From: Candidatus Zambryskiibacteriota bacterium
Lineage (GTDB): Bacteria > Patescibacteriota > Minisyncoccia > Phycocordibacterales > Zambryskibacteraceae
Assembly (NCBI GenBank): GCA_016180955.1
Contig: JACPAD010000003.1
Location: 1 to 45,313 of the forward strand
Length of the DNA: 45,313 nt
Direction: 5' to 3'
The notes beneath the pieces are model-generated. The model was not told the origin of the DNA. It did no database searches and saw only the letters and a program-made list of their open reading frames with translations. Every line of letters begins with the position of its first letter. Positions within the stretch are counted from its first letter, which is position 1. Positions 1 to 11,295 of this stretch are shown here, piece after piece. The position numbers and the translations under genes are program-made.

Positions 1-1076
1 TCTGCGGTTGGTTTCTTGACCACTCGGGCGAGCGCTTTGGCGGCCGCTATTTTCATCTCGTCGGTAATTTGAGTGATGCGGGATTCAATTGCGCCTTTGA
101 AAATGCCCGGGAAAGCGAGAACATTGTTGATTTGATTTGGGAAATCGGAGCGGCCGGAGGCCACGACGGCCGCTCCTCCACGTTTGGCTTCGTCTGGCAT
201 AATCTCCGGTATCGGATTGGCCATGGCAAAGACTATTGCGTTCTTAGCCATAATTTCTATATCAGCTGCTTTGAGCAGGTCGCCTTTTGAGACCCCTACG
301 AAAACGTCGGCATCTTTGAGAGCGTCAAAAAGAGAGCCCGACAAGTTTTCTCCATTTGTGATTTTTAATAACCGTTTTTTATTTTCCGTTAGATCCTTAC
401 GTTTTTTGCTTATGATGCCGTGGCTGTCACAGACAATGATGTTTTTGAATCCGTACAAATTTAAAAGTCCGATAATACCGCTGCCGGCGGCACCGGCGCC
501 ATTGATGACGATTTTTACTTTTTCTTTTTTCTTTCCCACAACCTTTAAAGCATTGATGAGTCCGGCCAGCACCACGACAGCGGTGCCATGCTGGTCGTCG
601 TGCATTACCGGGATTGAGAGCTCTTTTTTCAGCCTCTTTTCAATCTCAAAACAGCGCGGGGCGGAAATATCCTCGAGATTGATGCCGCCGAAAGTCGGCG
701 CAATTGCTTTGACCGTTGCTACTATTTCATCAGTGTCTTGTGTCGCAAGCACAACAGGGAAGGCGTCAACACCGGCAAAGCGCTTGAAGAGAGCGGCCTT
801 GCCTTCCATGATAGGCAAGGCCGCTTCAGGACCGATATTGCCGAGGCCGAGCACGGCCGAGCCGTCCGAGATGATGGCGACGCCATTTTTCGTTGCCGTT
901 AGATCATAAACAAGCTTTTTATTTTTAGCGATCGCCAGTGCTGGACCAGCTACGCCGGGAGTATAAGCGAGAGATAACTCCTCGCGATTTCTCAATGGTA
1001 GTTTACTTATTACCGAAATCTTTCCGCGCGCTTTTCGGTGAACTTCGATGCTTAACTTTTGATAGTCTTTTTTCAC
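1..1076 (-). CDS. NAD(P)-dependent malic enzyme (3' end truncated by window edge)
   Basis: Reverse-strand translation from a GTG at 1076 reads KKDYQKLSIEVHRKARGKISVISKLPLRNREELSLAYTPGVAGPALAI...GNIGPEAALPIMEGKAALFKRFAGVDAFPVVL...HDDQHGTAVV, the malic enzyme signature. The + strand ORF 184-909 is its antisense. Confidence 0.93.
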   Translation of the reverse strand, partial: MKKDYQKLSIEVHRKARGKISVISKLPLRNREELSLAYTPGVAGPALAIAKNKKLVYDLTATKNGVAIISDGSAVLGLGNIGPEAALPIMEGKAALFKRFAGVDAFPVVLATQDTDEIVATVKAIAPTFGGINLEDISAPRCFEIEKRLKKELSIPVMHDDQHGTAVVVLAGLINALKVVGKKKEKVKIVINGAGAAGSGIIGLLNLYGFKNIIVCDSHGIISKKRKDLTENKKRLLKITNGENLSGSLFDALKDADVFVGVSKGDLLKAADIEIMAKNAIVFAMANPIPEIMPDEAKRGGAAVVASGRSDFPNQINNVLAFPGIFKGAIESRITQITDEMKIAAAKALARVVKKPTA

Positions 1077-2129: not shown

Positions 2130-2159
2130 TTGACTTTTATATACTGCTCGTGCTATAAT
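2130..2159 (+). promoter_or_regulatory. Sigma70-like promoter for the DGR target gene
   Basis: TTGACT - 18 bp - TATAAT, about 80 bp upstream of the ATG at 2238. Confidence 0.6.
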
Positions 2160-2237: not shown

Positions 2238-2951
2238 ATGAGCAACAAGCCCGTGACCTTGGGCCAGGCGGTCCAGGTTCGCAAAATGGCGATCGAGAAG
2301 GGGGTTTCTCGTGACGTTTTCCAGACTCGTCTGGATGACGGCACGGTCGCCCGGTTCCTCAACTCCCTCAAGCCGTCTATTGGTGATCTGGCCCGCTGGG
2401 AAGCGAACTATAAGAAGCTCTTCGAGGAGAGGCCCGACCTCTCGCAGGTGCGGATTCCGGAGAAGCCCGAAGGCGTCGGGCCGGTGCGGCTTCTCGTTTG
2501 CGCGAAGGAACTCATCGAGTGGACAGAGAATCATCCGCTCGAGGGTGTTCAGGAAGCGCTGAAGAAGCACTTCCGGGGGTGGGAATACACGGATGACCTC
2601 GATGCCGACATCACGATGAACGACCGCGACCCGAGAAACGGCTCGTATGCCGTCTGGGTCAAGGATGTCCGCGAAGCTGATGAGGAATTCGCCAACAAGT
2701 CGGCGGGCGACCTCAAGGCCGAAGGCCACACCGGCATCACGGAGCTCGAGCGAGGCCTTCTCGAAGGAGATGTCTTCCTCGAGAAGGGCGAGCACCTGGA
2801 CCGCGAGAACGTGACGCTGTGCACAGGTTCTCGTCGTCGCGATGGCCTCGTGCCGAGCGGCCACTGGGGCGCCCGCGACGGGTTCGACGTCGACTGCTGC
2901 GACTCGGCGCGTCGCCTTCCGCGCCTCCGTTCCCGCAGGGTTTGGGCGTAG
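2238..2951 (+). CDS. DGR target (variable) protein with C-terminal VR, probable C-type-lectin-like variable domain
   Basis: 237 aa, SD-like ataaggag upstream. C-terminus ...GKGEHLDRENVTLCTGSRRRDGLVPSGHWGARDGFDVDCCDSARRLPRLRSRRVWA is encoded by the VR. No signal peptide or TM segment seen. Confidence 0.88.
   Translation: MSNKPVTLGQAVQVRKMAIEKGVSRDVFQTRLDDGTVARFLNSLKPSIGDLARWEANYKKLFEERPDLSQVRIPEKPEGVGPVRLLVCAKELIEWTENHPLEGVQEALKKHFRGWEYTDDLDADITMNDRDPRNGSYAVWVKDVREADEEFANKSAGDLKAEGHTGITELERGLLEGDVFLEKGEHLDRENVTLCTGSRRRDGLVPSGHWGARDGFDVDCCDSARRLPRLRSRRVWA
2825..2938 (+). repeat. DGR variable repeat (VR)
   Basis: 114-bp near-copy of 3191-3304. All 24 mismatches are at positions where the downstream copy has A (14 A>G, 8 A>C, 2 A>T). 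Confidence 0.95.
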
Positions 2952-2985
2952 ACTTACACCTTACACCTTGCATCTTGTAATCTTT

Positions 2986-3008
2986 GGCCGGCTCCTCGTG
3001 AGCCGGCC
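2986..3008 (+). terminator. GC-rich hairpin downstream of VR (terminator or retrohoming hairpin)
   Basis: GGCCGGCTC-CTCGT-GAGCCGGCC, perfect 9-bp stem followed by ATTTTT. Confidence 0.75.
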
Positions 3009-3190
3009 ATTTTTCATATAAAATAATTTGGCGGCTGTTAAATCAATTCCGCTTAAAGTTGAATAATGATTTGCCGCTTCAAAAACTGCTTGCCTTGCTT
3101 GACACAACGCCCGAGAGTGCCGCGGGAAATTCACAAATACAATAAGCCAATATTTCGGCTTACGAAGACACAGATGAAGCAGGGCAACGG

Positions 3191-3304
3191 AGGTTCTCGT
3201 AATCGCAATGGCAACGTGCCGAGCGGCAACTGGGACGCCAACGACAAGTTCAACGTCAACTACTACAACTCGACGAATCGCAATCCGAACCTCCGTTCCC
3301 GAAG
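3191..3304 (+). repeat. DGR template repeat (TR)
   Basis: AGGTTCTCGTAATCGCAATGGCAACGTGCCGAGCGGCAACTGG...AACCTCCGTTCCCGAAG. A-rich AAY codons in the frame equivalent to VR (SRNRNGNVPSGNWDANDKFNVNYYNSTNRNPNLRSR). Confidence 0.95.
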
Positions 3305-3307
3305 TTT

Positions 3308-3709
3308 TTAGAAAAGCTCTCCTTGCGGGGAGTTTTTCTTTGCGTAGTTTTCCCAGCCCAATGCCTCCTTGGATATTTCCTGGAGTTTTTCTTCAAAAAG
3401 TAAATAATAACTTTCTCTAATTATTTTCAGTTCAAATTCAACTCTGATAAGATATTTTAAAGTTTCTACGTTGATTCTTAATTCCCTAATGACTTCTCGT
3501 TTATCAGTTCTGTTTTCTAGTGACGCTCGTATAGCCAAGCTAAGCAAATTCAAACAAATTCTCTCTACTTCCGCATGCAAACCGAGCTTATCGCGTTTCG
3601 GCATCCTGCTTCCGACTTGATATATCTCTCTGTACAATGACTGGATATGGAAGATGATCGGAGCCACGTTTTTTCCGTCGGGGGGGGGTCCTGATAGGAG
3701 TATTTTCAA
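3308..3709 (-). CDS. avd: Avd-like accessory variability determinant (four-helix bundle)
   Basis: ...PIIFHIQSLYREIYQVGSRMPKRDKLGLHAEVERICLNLLSLAIRASLENRTDKREVIRELRINVETLKYLIRVEFELKIIRESYYLLFEEKLQEISKEALGWENYAKK resembles Avd/four-helix-bundle proteins; next to TR and RT. True start may be the GTG at 3667. Confidence 0.82.
   Translation of the reverse strand: MKILLSGPPPDGKNVAPIIFHIQSLYREIYQVGSRMPKRDKLGLHAEVERICLNLLSLAIRASLENRTDKREVIRELRINVETLKYLIRVEFELKIIRESYYLLFEEKLQEISKEALGWENYAKKNSPQGELF
3311..3338. terminator. Hairpin just after TR; possible bidirectional terminator between TR RNA and convergent avd
   Basis: GAAAAGCTCTCC-TTGC-GGGGAGTTTTTC, 12-bp stem including two G-U pairs, T-rich on both strands. 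Confidence 0.6.
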
Positions 3710-4724
3710 TCATATAGTTTCGGCTGAAAATTTATTTGCCGCTTGGCGAGTATTTAAGAAAGGCAAGACTAGAAAGCCTGATGTTATAGAATTTGCACAC
3801 AATCTAGAGAATAACATCTTTGCTCTTAGAGATGAATTGCTCGCGCACAACTGGAAGTGCGGAGGCTACAAAAAATTTTCTATAAAAGACCCTAAGCCCC
3901 GCACTATTCATAAGGCAACCGTGAGAGACAGGATTTTGTACCAAGCTGTCTATCAGATTTTGTATCCAATATTCGATAAAACTTTTATTTTTGATTCTTA
4001 TTCAAGCAGGAAAGACAAGGGGACTCACGCCGGAATAAAAAGGCTAAACATCTTCCTACGGAAGTTAAACATAAACTATACCAAACCGGTTTACGCGCTT
4101 AAATGCGATATCAAGAAATATTTTGACTCGATTGACCACGAAATTCTGATTTCGTTGATTAAAAATAAAGTAGAGTGTCTAAAAACGTTGGCTTTAATTG
4201 AGAAAATAATAAATTCTTTCCATAAAACTTCTGGCAAAGGCCTTCCGCTAGGAAACGTCACTAGCCAAGTTTTTGCCAACATTTACATGAACGGTTTTGA
4301 CTGGTATGTGAAAAATGAGCTTGGAATAAAGCATTACATCCGCTACAACGACGATTTCATTATTCTTTCTTCTAACAAAAATGAGTTAATTAAACTTATA
4401 CGATATATCGTATATTTCCTACTAAACAATTTAAAGCTCGAGTTGCATCCGGACAAGATAATTATCCGCAAACTTCATCAAGGCGTTGATTTCCTCGGAG
4501 CAGTTCTCTTGCCGCATAGAATGGCCCCCAGAACCAAGACAAAGAGACGCATTATTAAGAAATCGCTAAAAATGTTGAAAGAACTGGAGGCTGGCAAAAT
4601 AACAAAAGAAAAGTTCGGCCAATCAACGGTTTCTTATCTCGGACATTTAAGCCACACCAAATCGAGAGTTGTTCAGCATCTTCTGCATTCAATCAGGGCC
4701 AAAATGTGGAATTTGCCAGAATAA
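3654..4724 (+). CDS. DGR-type reverse transcriptase
   Basis: IHKATVRDRILYQAVYQILYPIFDKTFIFDSYSSRKDKGTHAGIKRL, KCDIKKYFDSIDHEIL, GKGLPLGNVTSQVFANIYMNGFD, YIRYNDDFIIL: RT domains with DGR/retron-like SQ motif and NDD catalytic box. Start codon uncertain (9-G tract at 3680-3688). Confidence 0.95.
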   Translation: MIGATFFPSGGGPDRSIFNHIVSAENLFAAWRVFKKGKTRKPDVIEFAHNLENNIFALRDELLAHNWKCGGYKKFSIKDPKPRTIHKATVRDRILYQAVYQILYPIFDKTFIFDSYSSRKDKGTHAGIKRLNIFLRKLNINYTKPVYALKCDIKKYFDSIDHEILISLIKNKVECLKTLALIEKIINSFHKTSGKGLPLGNVTSQVFANIYMNGFDWYVKNELGIKHYIRYNDDFIILSSNKNELIKLIRYIVYFLLNNLKLELHPDKIIIRKLHQGVDFLGAVLLPHRMAPRTKTKRRIIKKSLKMLKELEAGKITKEKFGQSTVSYLGHLSHTKSRVVQHLLHSIRAKMWNLPE

Positions 4725-7078: not shown

Positions 7079-7843
7079 ATGAAATTTGAGCTCATCGCTT
7101 TCGATATTGACGGTACCTTGACCAGGAGTAAATCGCCGCTTGAGGACAACCCCCTGATTGATACGGATATGTCGGACTGGCTCAATAAGTTAATGGTTAA
7201 GTATAAAGTGGCGATAATATCCGGCGCCTCCTACAAGCAATTCCAGTCTCAAATTTTGGCCCATCTGACTAAAGACAGAGAGAAGCTCAAGAATCTCTAC
7301 CTTCTGCCGACCAACGGCACCGCCTTATGTGTTTACGGAAACGGTACGTGGCAGTGCCCGCCGGTCAACGCTCTGACCGACAGCGAAAAGAAGGAAATCT
7401 ATGCAGCTTTCGATAAAATGTTTGCCGAAGTGGGGTTTACGATTCCCGATAATGTTTACGGCGAGATAATCGAAGACCGCGGCTCGCAGATTACCTTCTC
7501 CGCATTTGGGCAGAATGCTCCCATTGAAATCAAAGAGGCGTGGGACAAGGACCACAGCAGGCGCGAGCAAATGGTCTTGGTGCTTAAAAAGTATTTGCCG
7601 GATTTCGCGGCACACATCGGCGGGGCCACTTCCATCGACGTAACAAGGCGGGGGATAGATAAAGCCTACGGCCTTCGCGAACTTCTAAAACACCTCAATC
7701 TGCCGAGGGAAAAATTGCTTTATGTCGGAGACGAGTTGTATACGGACGGCAACGACGCACCGGCCCTTAAGGTCGCGGGAGAATGCCGAGCGGTCAAGGG
7801 CCCGGAGGAGACTAAGAAAGTCATAATGGAACTTTTGGTGTAA
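7079..7843 (+). CDS. HAD-IIB family phosphatase / phosphomannomutase-like
   Basis: FDIDGTLTRSKSPL ... IISGASYKQFQSQI ... GGATSIDVTRRGIDKAYGLREL ... LLYVGDELYTDGNDAPAL. Confidence 0.85.
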   Translation: MKFELIAFDIDGTLTRSKSPLEDNPLIDTDMSDWLNKLMVKYKVAIISGASYKQFQSQILAHLTKDREKLKNLYLLPTNGTALCVYGNGTWQCPPVNALTDSEKKEIYAAFDKMFAEVGFTIPDNVYGEIIEDRGSQITFSAFGQNAPIEIKEAWDKDHSRREQMVLVLKKYLPDFAAHIGGATSIDVTRRGIDKAYGLRELLKHLNLPREKLLYVGDELYTDGNDAPALKVAGECRAVKGPEETKKVIMELLV

Positions 7844-7867
7844 AACCGATGATGTTATAATAGCGAA

Positions 7868-8218
7868 ATGAAGGAACTGAATCCTTTTACCGAAAAGCGT
7901 CCATGGGGGGAATTTCGTGAGTTTGTAAGAGACGAGGCGGCTACTGTCAAAATCATTTTTGTAAAAAAGTGGGAGGCCTTCAGTCTGCAAAAGCATCACA
8001 ACAGGGCCGAATTCTGGAGAGTGCTCTCGGGCGAGCCAGATATCACCATTGGCGAGAAAACCACGAGAGCGAAAGTGGGGGATGAATTCGAGATTCCTAT
8101 AGAAGCCAGTCATCGTGTCTCAGCTCCGGTAAGTGACGTCGAGGTACTGGAGATTTCGAGGGGCAAATTTGATGAAAGTGATATTGTAAGAATTGAAGAT
8201 AAATATGGCCGCGCTTAA
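7868..8218 (+). CDS. Cupin, mannose-6-phosphate isomerase type II-like
   Basis: EKRPWGEFREFV...VKIIFVKKWEAFSLQKHHNRAEFWRVLSGEPDITIGEKTTRAKVGDEFEIPIEASHRVSAP. Confidence 0.87.
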   Translation: MKELNPFTEKRPWGEFREFVRDEAATVKIIFVKKWEAFSLQKHHNRAEFWRVLSGEPDITIGEKTTRAKVGDEFEIPIEASHRVSAPVSDVEVLEISRGKFDESDIVRIEDKYGRA

Positions 8219-9371
8219 GAAAAAGAAAACAGTTTCCAATAAAAAGAAAGCCAAAACCACTTTCAAGAAAGTTAAGAAAAAGCCGGTTAAGCCAAAGTTA
8301 AAGAAAAAATCGAGGCCTTTGGATTTGCGCCGCGCTCTTCATAATCCTGTTATGAGTCCGACGCCGGGTTCCTACTGGGAGTCGGAAGCGGTTTTTAATC
8401 CCGGGGCGGTTATGGACGGCGGTCGAATTCATCTCTTCTACCGCGCCTTGGGTCCTGACGGCATCTCCCGCATCGGTTATGCTTCAAGCATTGACGGAGT
8501 CAATTTCGACTATCGGCACCCGCATCCGGTCTATATACCGGAGAAGGCTGCTGAAACAGCCAAACATCACCCGTACACTTCTCCGGCGCGCCTCACGTAC
8601 AATAGGGAACTTTATCTCTCCGGCGGCGGCTGGGGCGGGTGCGAAGATCCCAGAGCGGTCAAAATTGAGGGCCGGATATATCTGACGTTCAACATGTTCA
8701 ATGGCTGGCACTCGATGCGGGTGGCCTTTACTTCCATTGGCGAAGAAGATCTTGCGAACAAAAAATGGTATTGGAGTAAATTCGCCTACCTCTCTCGTCC
8801 CGGCGACCGACAAAAGAATTGGATTTTATTTCCGGAAAAGATTCGTGGAAAATTCGCCCTCTTTCATAATTTAGACAAAGGAGACTCTGCCCGAGTGCAC
8901 ATTGCTTATCTGGATGAGCTTGATATGCGAAAGACACCATCGCAAGAGGAAGCTCCGGACCCGCATACTTTGCCTGACCATGTGGTCGGCTGGCACAATC
9001 GCACCAGAAGCGCTGCCGCTCCGCCGATAAAAACTCCCGAGGGCTGGCTTTTGTTCTATCATGCCATGGACAGAGATGACCCGGGGCGTTACAAGCTTGG
9101 CGCGCTTCTACTTGACCTTGAAGATCCGACAAAAGTTCTCTACCGCTCCAGTTATCCGATTCTCGAGCCGGACGAGTGGTATGAGAATGACTGGAAGCCC
9201 GGTATCATCTACGCTTCCGGAGCTGTCGTAAAGGGCGACAAGCTCTTCATCTACTATGGCGGCGGCGACAAACATATCGGCATCGCTTACACCAATTTGA
9301 GTGACTTCATCAAGAAGCTTGTGAATAACGAACACGCCGTGTTCTCAAAAAGGTCAGCTCTGGTAGCGTAA
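8205..9371 (+). CDS. GH130 family beta-mannoside phosphorylase-like protein with Lys-rich N-terminal tail
   Basis: MAALKKKKTVSNKKKAK... then YWESEAVFNPGAVMDGGRIHLFYRALGPDGISRIGYASS ... GGCEDPRAVKIEGRIYLTF. Confidence 0.9.
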   Translation: MAALKKKKTVSNKKKAKTTFKKVKKKPVKPKLKKKSRPLDLRRALHNPVMSPTPGSYWESEAVFNPGAVMDGGRIHLFYRALGPDGISRIGYASSIDGVNFDYRHPHPVYIPEKAAETAKHHPYTSPARLTYNRELYLSGGGWGGCEDPRAVKIEGRIYLTFNMFNGWHSMRVAFTSIGEEDLANKKWYWSKFAYLSRPGDRQKNWILFPEKIRGKFALFHNLDKGDSARVHIAYLDELDMRKTPSQEEAPDPHTLPDHVVGWHNRTRSAAAPPIKTPEGWLLFYHAMDRDDPGRYKLGALLLDLEDPTKVLYRSSYPILEPDEWYENDWKPGIIYASGAVVKGDKLFIYYGGGDKHIGIAYTNLSDFIKKLVNNEHAVFSKRSALVA

Positions 9372-9375
9372 TTTT

Positions 9376-11295
9376 ATGTTTGTCATTAAACGTACAGAAG
9401 ATAATCCTATCCTAGTGCCGACCCGCGATCGTCACTGGGAAGCTTCGGCTACCTTCAATATGTCTGTGCTTAAGAAGGGGCGGAATATCTATGGTTTGTA
9501 TCGGGCGATATCGAGTAAGGACCCGTTAAGGGTTCCCGACCAAATCTCTATCGTGGGCATTGCCAAAAGCTTCGACGGTCTGCATTTCGAAGATCGTAAG
9601 CCGTTCATCGAACCGCAGGAAGAGTGGGATAAATACGGTTGCGAAGACCCGCGCGTCACTTTTTTCGAAGGCCGCTATTATATTTTCTACACCGCTCTTT
9701 CCCAGTTTCCTTTTGCCGCCCTAGGCATCAAGGTGGCAGTGGCTGTCTCGGACGACCTTAAAAAGGTCGATGAACGGCACTTAGTTACGCCCTTCAATGC
9801 CAAAGCCATGACCCTTTTTCCGGAACGGATTAATGGCAAGGTTACGGTTTTATTCAGCGCTCATACCGATGACTCTCCGGCCAAAATGGCCATAGCGGAA
9901 GCCAGTGGTATCTCCGATTTTTGGTCGCCGGAATTTTGGGAAAAGTGGCACGAACGCATTGATGACCACAAGTTGAAATTGCGCCGCGCCGACTTCGATA
10001 TGGTCGAAGTCGGCGCGGCGCCCATAAAGACCAAATACGGCTGGCTCGTAATCTATTCCCATATCCAAAACTTTTTCCCCGGAGGTAACGGAGGACCGCT
10101 TTTCGGCATCGAAGCGCTTCTTTTGGACTTGAATGACCCGCGAAAAATAGTCGGCCGCACCAAAGGCCCGATGCTCGTGCCCGAAGAACCTTATGAACTC
10201 TCCGGTCATGTTTCCAATATCGTCTTTCCTTCCGGAGCGCTTATTGATGGCGATACATTAAATATCTACTACGGAGCCGCTGATACCACTGTGTGTCTGG
10301 CGCGCGTCAATCTGGATAATCTCATCTCAACTCTTTATCCTGAAACTCGGGACCGCTTTCACTTCAAGCGCGCTAAAAATAATCCGATTATTACTCCGGA
10401 CCCAAATCATCTCTGGGAATCGAAAGCGACCTTCAATCCCGCCGCCATCGATCTTGGCGGCAAAGTCCATATCCTCTATCGCGCGCTCGCAAACGACAAC
10501 ACCTCAACGATTGGCTATGTCTCAAGCGCTGACGGAATAAGCGTTGACGAACGTCTTCCCGAACCGGTCTATGTCCCGAGAGAAAATTTCGAAACCAAAA
10601 AGATTGAAGGCGCCAATTCCGGCTGTGAAGACCCGCGTCTTACTAAAATTGGGAAGGAGTTGTACATGTGCTACACCGCTTTCGACGGCGTCGGCCCGCC
10701 GCGCGTGGCGGTAACATCGATTAGTGGAAAAGATTTCCTTGCCCATGACTGGCGGTGGAAGAAGCCGGAACTCATCACTCCGGCAGGAATCGACGATAAA
10801 GACACCTGCATTTTCCCGGCGAAGGTTTCAGGTAAATTCATGGTTCTCCATCGCATCGGCACCGACATCTGCGCCGATTTTCTGGAGTCGCTTGATTTCA
10901 AAAAGGAAGCCGTCAAGAAGTGCATCAGAATCTTCGGGCCAAGACCCGGCATGTGGGACAGTGCCAAGGTCGGCATCACTGCTCCGCCTGTCAAGACCAA
11001 AAATGGCTGGGTCCTTCTCTATCACGCCGTATCGGAACATCACCACACCTATCGCATTGGAGCGGCACTTCTTGACCCCAAAGATCCGACGACGGTGCTT
11101 GCCCGTTCGGCCGACCCGATTTTCAGTCCCGAAGAATCTTTTGAGAAAGAGGGCATCGTCAATAATGTCGTTTTTCCTTGCGGTATAGTAGTGCGTGACG
11201 GATTGCTTTATATCTACTACGGCGCTGCGGACAAAGTGGTGGGAGTAGCCGCTATGGAGCTTGATGTTTTAGTAAATGCTCTTTCGATTCTGTGA
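9376..11295 (+). CDS. Tandem double-domain GH130 protein
   Basis: Two consecutive GH130 modules: HWEASATFNMSVLKKGRNIYGLYRAIS/YGCEDPRVTFFEGRYY and LWESKATFNPAAIDLGGKVHILYRALA/SGCEDPRLTKIGKELY. Confidence 0.92.
   Translation: MFVIKRTEDNPILVPTRDRHWEASATFNMSVLKKGRNIYGLYRAISSKDPLRVPDQISIVGIAKSFDGLHFEDRKPFIEPQEEWDKYGCEDPRVTFFEGRYYIFYTALSQFPFAALGIKVAVAVSDDLKKVDERHLVTPFNAKAMTLFPERINGKVTVLFSAHTDDSPAKMAIAEASGISDFWSPEFWEKWHERIDDHKLKLRRADFDMVEVGAAPIKTKYGWLVIYSHIQNFFPGGNGGPLFGIEALLLDLNDPRKIVGRTKGPMLVPEEPYELSGHVSNIVFPSGALIDGDTLNIYYGAADTTVCLARVNLDNLISTLYPETRDRFHFKRAKNNPIITPDPNHLWESKATFNPAAIDLGGKVHILYRALANDNTSTIGYVSSADGISVDERLPEPVYVPRENFETKKIEGANSGCEDPRLTKIGKELYMCYTAFDGVGPPRVAVTSISGKDFLAHDWRWKKPELITPAGIDDKDTCIFPAKVSGKFMVLHRIGTDICADFLESLDFKKEAVKKCIRIFGPRPGMWDSAKVGITAPPVKTKNGWVLLYHAVSEHHHTYRIGAALLDPKDPTTVLARSADPIFSPEESFEKEGIVNNVVFPCGIVVRDGLLYIYYGAADKVVGVAAMELDVLVNALSIL

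Follow-up and report, generated by a model that had tools for sequence, protein, structure and literature searches.

The window, the whole stretch of 45,313 nt that was analysed, carries what its sequence indicates to be a complete DGR on the chromosome of a member of the Parcubacteria group (Patescibacteria/CPR). The element probably hypermutates the C-terminal, CLec-like face of a non-secreted protein of 237 aa, with cDNA synthesis that would start by way of an RNA leader. The leader and an antisense gene for the accessory protein Avd adjoin the variable site reported in the preliminary description, which missed them, and they are the new part of the locus. We further propose, tentatively and at somewhat below even confidence, that in patescibacterial DGRs the leader, located 5′ to the template repeat (TR), is the docking and priming element of the complex of reverse transcriptase (RT) and Avd, acting through a helix P0 formed across the TR, and that the reversal of avd served to make the TR RNA a short free-standing transcript.

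Layout of the cassette and its repeats

Reading along the plus strand, the target gene with its variable repeat (VR) is followed by a terminator-like hairpin, the leader, the TR, a second terminator-like hairpin, avd on the minus strand, and the RT gene. Downstream of the RT lie the gene for ribosomal protein L19 and then tRNA genes, and the locus is chromosomal. The elements other than the leader are as follows.

2130–2159, plus strand: predicted promoter-like site of the target gene (TTGACT-18-TATAAT with an extended −10; 11 of 12 consensus matches)
2238–2951, plus strand: ORF of the DGR target protein, 237 aa, with a predicted CLec-like C-terminal half and relatives in Parcubacteria
2825–2935, plus strand: VR, inside the target ORF at its 3′ end, with A-only differences to the TR
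2985–3009, plus strand: GC-rich hairpin and T-run 3′ of the target gene, 49 nt past the VR (terminator scan)
3191–3301, plus strand: TR, with 11 AAY codons in the VR frame
3319–3337, plus strand: terminator-like hairpin and T-run, predicted from sequence by terminator scan as the end of the TR RNA
3308–3709, minus strand: Avd accessory protein, between TR and RT; the true start is possibly nearer 3670
3654–4724, plus strand: DGR RT (PF00078, E 2e-21; motifs YNDD and LGNVTSQ); start codon uncertain

The general features of a DGR that can be read from sequence are present, comprising an adenine-specific TR/VR pair, an RT of DGR type with both hallmark motifs (YxDD and [LIVM]GxxxSQ), an Avd, and a VR at the C-terminus of the target. 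Avd matches the profile PF22296 bAvd above its cut-off (E 4e-12), and NF033474 DivGenRetAVD with E 4e-12, below the cut-off of that model. The divergent avd and RT genes overlap at their 5′ ends (window 3654–3709), where there is a tract of at least eight G nucleotides, and close or overlapping avd and RT 5′ ends also occur in other loci. An orthologous cassette with the same neighbours is present in the same genus (L011/L056, Parcubacteria group GW2011_GWA2_50_10b).

The antisense position of Avd between TR and RT is general in this phylum. It is found in 111 of the 112 CPR loci having Avd, i.e. in 75/75 from the family and order samples and 36/37 from the phylum-wide sample. The sole exception (L212, from the phylum-wide sample of 37 loci) has the canonical order VR-Avd-TR-gap-RT. 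By contrast, Avd of phage DGRs is encoded on the RT strand upstream of the TR in 6/6 cases, including Bordetella BIP-1. In an RT tree calculated by a quick method with a midpoint root, the elements with antisense Avd cluster together (SH-aLRT 97), with the phages and L212 falling outside.

The VR and TR form a direct repeat (2825–2943 and 3191–3309) with a spacing of 366. Base-by-base comparison of TR 3191–3301 with the VR shows that 23 of 31 adenines are changed and none of the 80 other positions; the probability that 23/23 changes fall on A by chance is ∼2e-13. The earlier reading of the codons is confirmed, in that all 11 AAY codons of the TR are re-specified in the VR (as R,D,L,H,R,D,D,D,R,L,R) and both tyrosines become cysteine (TAC to TGC in two codons). 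Three further codon changes, GAC to GGC, AAG to GGG and ACG to GCG, were absent from that account. The suggestion that the template avoids stop codons is well founded for its AAY design, but the AAG codon at 3246 can mutate to a TAG stop, so that the template is not wholly stop-proof. At position 3302 there is an A in the TR and a C in the VR. The same boundary difference recurs in most relatives, and it is therefore better read as a fixed TR/VR boundary than as a mutation; it looks like the IMH*/IMH difference.

Comparison was made with 94 TR/VR pairs from CPR genomes, some of the data deriving from incomplete MAGs. Within these, 57.8% of 3029 TR adenines are changed, compared with 2.2% of other bases. 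AAY accounts for 806 of 923 AAN codons (87%), and 72/806 of these (9%) are unchanged. The expected probability that 11/11 AAY codons would be changed is 0.36 at the family rate and 0.49 with full randomisation, and thus re-specification of every asparagine is ordinary among related pairs and not exceptional. These natural CPR sequences display context-dependent mutagenesis at template adenines. At the first A of an AA pair 77% of cases show a change, and C, G and T all arise, while the second A (49%) and a lone A (43%) are changed mostly to G. This pattern agrees with the raised mutation rate for AAC in BPP-1 (PMC12875486), although the CPR figures include selection on the target. Given the mutability of AA pairs and the lack of stops derived from AAY, these codons join stop avoidance to high mutability.

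The target protein

The 237-aa protein has no family in Pfam, NCBIfam or PADLOC, and no sequence match in the PDB. Its AF2 model, based on an alignment with 12 relatives, has a pLDDT of 84 and a pTM of 0.78, with residues 1–50 uncertain. From residue 83 the model proceeds as a strand, a helix, two strands and a long helix (169–183), and it ends with four to six short strands on which the VR lies. The same order of elements is present in the model of a second family member. Comparison of the two models with the PDB using Foldseek gave recurrent matches to C-type lectin domains, and to EgtB (FGE/CLec-type) for the second; none was significant, the best having E values of 0.2–0.9 and none falling below 0.2. 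The C-type lectin fold anticipated for the C-terminus is thus compatible with both models and with the recurrence of CLec and EgtB matches, but lacks a significant structural match, and we regard a CLec fold as no more than likely. The known CLec variable proteins (Mtd, TvpA, archaeal and Thermus) similarly have a C-terminal VR over the last strands and the helix-then-strands order seen in the model, but their N-terminal parts differ from that of the window target, and there is no significant fold or sequence match between them.

The N-terminal 47 residues (window 2238–2378) recur elsewhere (L149 2247–2390, minus strand; L007 1501–1641), both in an unrelated DGR target and in proteins that belong to no DGR. 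These sequences suggest that an N-terminal module may be swapped among DGR targets and other proteins. The N-terminus of the orthologue in L011 differs from that of the window target. The module was considered as a widespread targeting tag, but it was rejected in this role on finding it in only 7/148 genomes, with one copy in each. A viral origin of the target was also considered. The protein has no close relatives in the viral contigs of IMG/VR, and such an origin is therefore not supported.

The preliminary description had noted that the target has no visible export signal, and a Kyte-Doolittle scan supports this; the protein contains no hydrophobic 19-mer, the maximum mean being 0.52. An N-terminal hydrophobic segment, taken as 19 residues within the first 60 with a Kyte-Doolittle mean of at least 1.6, is absent in 89 of 92 CPR targets, for some of which the choice of ORF was mechanical. 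The preliminary description had also set this protein apart from the targets of phage tail and surface DGRs. The observation of a missing export signal is sound, but it is not new for CPR. Roux et al. 2021 (PMC8144416) reported that targets of CPR clade 2 are typically without recognisable TM or other domains, and left open whether they are truly non-membrane-bound. The point that the target looks cytoplasmic was thus already known.

Patescibacteria are epibionts dependent on contact with their hosts. There is a substantial, though less than even, possibility that a non-classical route carries the target out of the cytoplasm for display. This would accord with that way of life, and with DGR targets elsewhere, which are mostly surface-exposed binders (PMC8144416); the missing hydrophobic segment argues against it.

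A structured RNA 5′ of the template repeat

A conserved element of ∼100 nt lies directly 5′ of the TR. A single alignment of all the leaders gave no consensus because they fall into two classes, and splitting by class provided one for each. Both classes share a plan in which a 12-bp closing helix P1 at the edge of the TR encloses two hairpins, P2 and P3. The window leader belongs to class II, with the following predicted elements.

3079–3187, plus strand: structured 5′ leader of the DGR RNA, class II (79.9 bits with covariance model R1, of which it is a seed member)
3081–3087, plus strand: 5′ strand of P0 (AAAAACU), located 5′ of P1 and paired with 3303–3309
3090–3100, plus strand: 5′ strand of closing helix P1, paired with 3177–3187
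3110–3126, plus strand: P2 hairpin (3110–3113 with 3123–3126), the weakest helix
3143–3162, plus strand: P3 hairpin (3143–3148 with 3157–3162)
3177–3187, plus strand: 3′ strand of P1, ending 3 nt before the TR
3303–3309, plus strand: 3′ strand of P0 (AGUUUUU), immediately 3′ of the TR

The leaders were aligned by sequence only using MAFFT, with 11 sequences of class II (the window type) and 12 of class I. Two-sided changes occur in 20/24 base pairs of class II and 16/24 of class I, and 91.5% and 93.1% of cells, respectively, are paired. The covariation scores are 0.71 (class II) and 0.58 (class I). Shuffling gave means of 0.31 and 0.28 and, in 500 shuffles, never a score as high as the real one, and slid structures reached a maximum of 0.23. 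Covariance models made 31 (class II) and 56 (class I) leader matches, most of them outside the seeds, and with the two models the leader is found at only ∼85 of some 120 CPR loci (E ≤ 0.01). The same search gave no match in the six phage DGRs or in L212. The refitted alignments have 92–95% paired cells, though these alignments lean to the model. P2 of class II is the weakest helix, at 78%. Neither the window leader nor its relatives match Rfam 15.

The class of leader follows the RT tree, with 3 changes compared with 30.6 in shuffles. Within the source genome the class II model matches the window locus only, whereas the matches of the class I model are confined to the other two DGRs. Near-identical RTs and leaders are found in three loci (L052, L054 and L211) of genomes from different families of the phylum, so that a chromosomal DGR has probably been transferred horizontally between them in recent times. 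A second leader RNA (L049:53–169, minus strand; E 3e-15) lies at a contig edge away from the RT, and is a possible second DGR or orphan DGR RNA.

Folding of positions 3079–3340 generates the P0 helix AAAAACU/AGUUUUU, formed between the 5′ end of the leader and the nucleotides following the TR. The corresponding pairing is UAAAACU/AGUUUUA in the orthologue L011 and AGAAACU/AGUUUCU in most class II loci, with variants AGAAAUU/AAUUUCU in L119 (and, by eye, the same in L120) and AGAUACU/AGUAUCA in L145. The class I pairs are AAAUGAAGA/UCUUCAUUU and AAAUGAAGC/GCUUCAUUU. The duplex between a leader and its own flank is more stable than with swapped partners, at −13.0 vs −10.8 kcal/mol in class II (0/2000 permutations) and −11.1 vs −10.2 kcal/mol in class I (1/2000 permutations); these energies could in part reflect base composition common to the leader and flank of one genome. 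The compensatory base pairs of P0 would not be explained by such shared composition. General self-pairing between the start and end of the TR was also considered; it was seen in class II (0/2000) but not in class I (575/2000), and was rejected as a general feature. Since the 5′ strand of P0 co-varies with the bases just 3′ of the TR, the leader would sit at the likely start of the cDNA.

Proposed initiation of cDNA synthesis in CPR DGRs

In the proposed mechanism a short TR RNA (about 3079–3337) would be made on its own. P0 would close the TR into a loop, bringing its 3′ end, where the cDNA must start because TR–VR identity ends there, next to the leader. The RT–Avd complex would then bind the leader and prime cDNA synthesis at this point, so that the leader would do the job of the 3′ spacer of BPP-1, and the mutagenised cDNA would replace the VR. 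Expression of the RT may rely on a promoter within the stretch antisense to avd, or on transcription that continues past the TR terminator. Such read-through into the RT would create a transcript antisense to avd mRNA. The orientation of Avd may also set up a regulatory conflict between avd and a read-through TR–RT transcript.

A hairpin and T-run is found 3′ of the TR in 37% of relatives at a strict threshold, compared with 0.4% in shuffles, and the sequences of the stems are very different between genomes. Hairpins with T nucleotides are also enriched 3′ of the VR in relatives; that of the window (2985–3009) looks like a terminator and may also be the retrohoming stem-loop.

In BPP-1 a structured spacer 3′ of the TR recruits RT–Avd and contains within it the adenine used for priming, and cDNA synthesis is ended by a motif 5′ of the TR (PMC12875486; PMC8867640). 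By analogy the CPR elements could prime from the 3′ side in the canonical manner, if the TR RNA passes the hairpin and then folds into a spacer-like structure within the stretch antisense to avd; the role of the leader would in that case be confined to stopping cDNA synthesis, stabilising the RNA or driving transcription. Such read-through and the formation of a 3′ spacer could occur, since the terminator is a sequence prediction. Nevertheless we consider canonical 3′ priming unlikely. In CPR loci a terminator-like hairpin lies within tens of bases of the TR, directly 3′ of it in most relatives, and the Avd stop codon is usually close behind. The median distance from the TR end to the Avd stop is 17.5 nt, leaving little non-coding room for a spacer like that of BPP-1. 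Moreover, P0 links the leader to the 3′ end of the TR, not the 5′ end.

The preliminary description had proposed a search for paralogous VR proteins elsewhere in the genome. The source genome (0.49 Mb, 85% complete) contains none of the window type, but it does have two further complete DGRs, the targets of which are unrelated to that of the window. In the second DGR (L040, G000:C6:12000–26000; VR 8954–9065, target ORF 9057–9449, minus strand) the TR and VR are intact and A-specific, and the target frame breaks just before the VR, through a frameshift or an assembly error. The third (L041, G000:C6:37000–50000; TR 7383–7478, VR 7841–7936, minus strand) has an in-frame TGA in both TR and VR, so that copying of this template would of itself place a stop codon in the target. 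A weak fourth Avd-like four-helix-bundle protein (L069, G000:C3:29836–30138, minus strand; E 0.002, below cut-off) is present on a contig in which no DGR RT was found. Elsewhere in the phylum, locus L012 (G008:C11) has two tandem targets of the window type beside an RT with an in-frame TAG, and the TR search of that locus found no TR. In three loci the best VR is ∼1 kb or more from the TR or on the opposite strand (L188, VR 91–213; L199, VR 709–840; L147, VR 448–566, minus strand); these may be remote or second targets.

The damage in the other two DGRs of the genome, and the interrupted RT of G008, would be in keeping with the window DGR being a fossil, with old VR differences and an element now inactive. 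We consider this improbable, since the window target, RT and Avd all retain open frames, TR and VR do not differ at any non-adenine position, and conservation of the RT reaches 72% identity within the genus. A plain regulatory role for the leader, as a riboswitch- or attenuator-like 5′ element with no part in the chemistry of retrotransposition, is very improbable. The leader does follow the target gene and lie close to a predicted terminator, which might suggest such a role, but it is always directly 5′ of the TR, its class follows the RT phylogeny, and covariation links its P0 strand to the sequence flanking the TR on the 3′ side.

The window DGR resembles that of BPP-1 (avd-TR-brt, target mtd) in its A-specific mutagenesis from TR to VR, the VR at the 3′ end of the target gene, the DGR RT, the Avd, and a structured RNA adjoining the TR. 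The single-strand order avd-TR-RT of BPP-1, with avd upstream, is not found; here the order is VR, TR, antisense Avd and RT. The structured element is 5′ of the TR, and where BPP-1 has a ∼140-nt spacer 3′ of the TR the window has a terminator-like hairpin. The locus is chromosomal, whereas BPP-1 is a phage. The window DGR is probably a member of CPR clade 2 of Roux et al. 2021 (PMC8144416), with which the host lineage fits, and which it resembles also in chromosomal context and in a target lacking a recognisable TM or known domain; the word Avd is absent from the main text of that paper. No description of an antisense Avd or a 5′ DGR leader was found in the literature searched, the scope of which did not include Paul et al. 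2017 and Wu et al. 2018. The DGR itself is of known type. As far as the literature covered extends, the rearrangement of the cassette across CPR, together with its covarying 5′ leader, is undescribed.

CPR bacteria rank with the most DGR-rich groups, and to our knowledge the mechanism is known only from phage BPP-1. Taken together, the leader and the antisense Avd suggest that CPR bacteria may start mutagenic copying differently from the textbook phage system. A covarying RNA that reaches the cDNA start site provides a testable handle on the start of cDNA synthesis in CPR DGRs, and covariance models can locate their RNAs, including those without a neighbouring RT. A defined minimal RNA could be used for a compact mutagenesis tool. 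With 89 of 92 CPR targets lacking an export signal, what these proteins bind, and where, stays a directly testable question. If the proposed role of the leader is correct, it would constitute a second way to start DGR cDNA synthesis, and one that is among the commoner by lineage.
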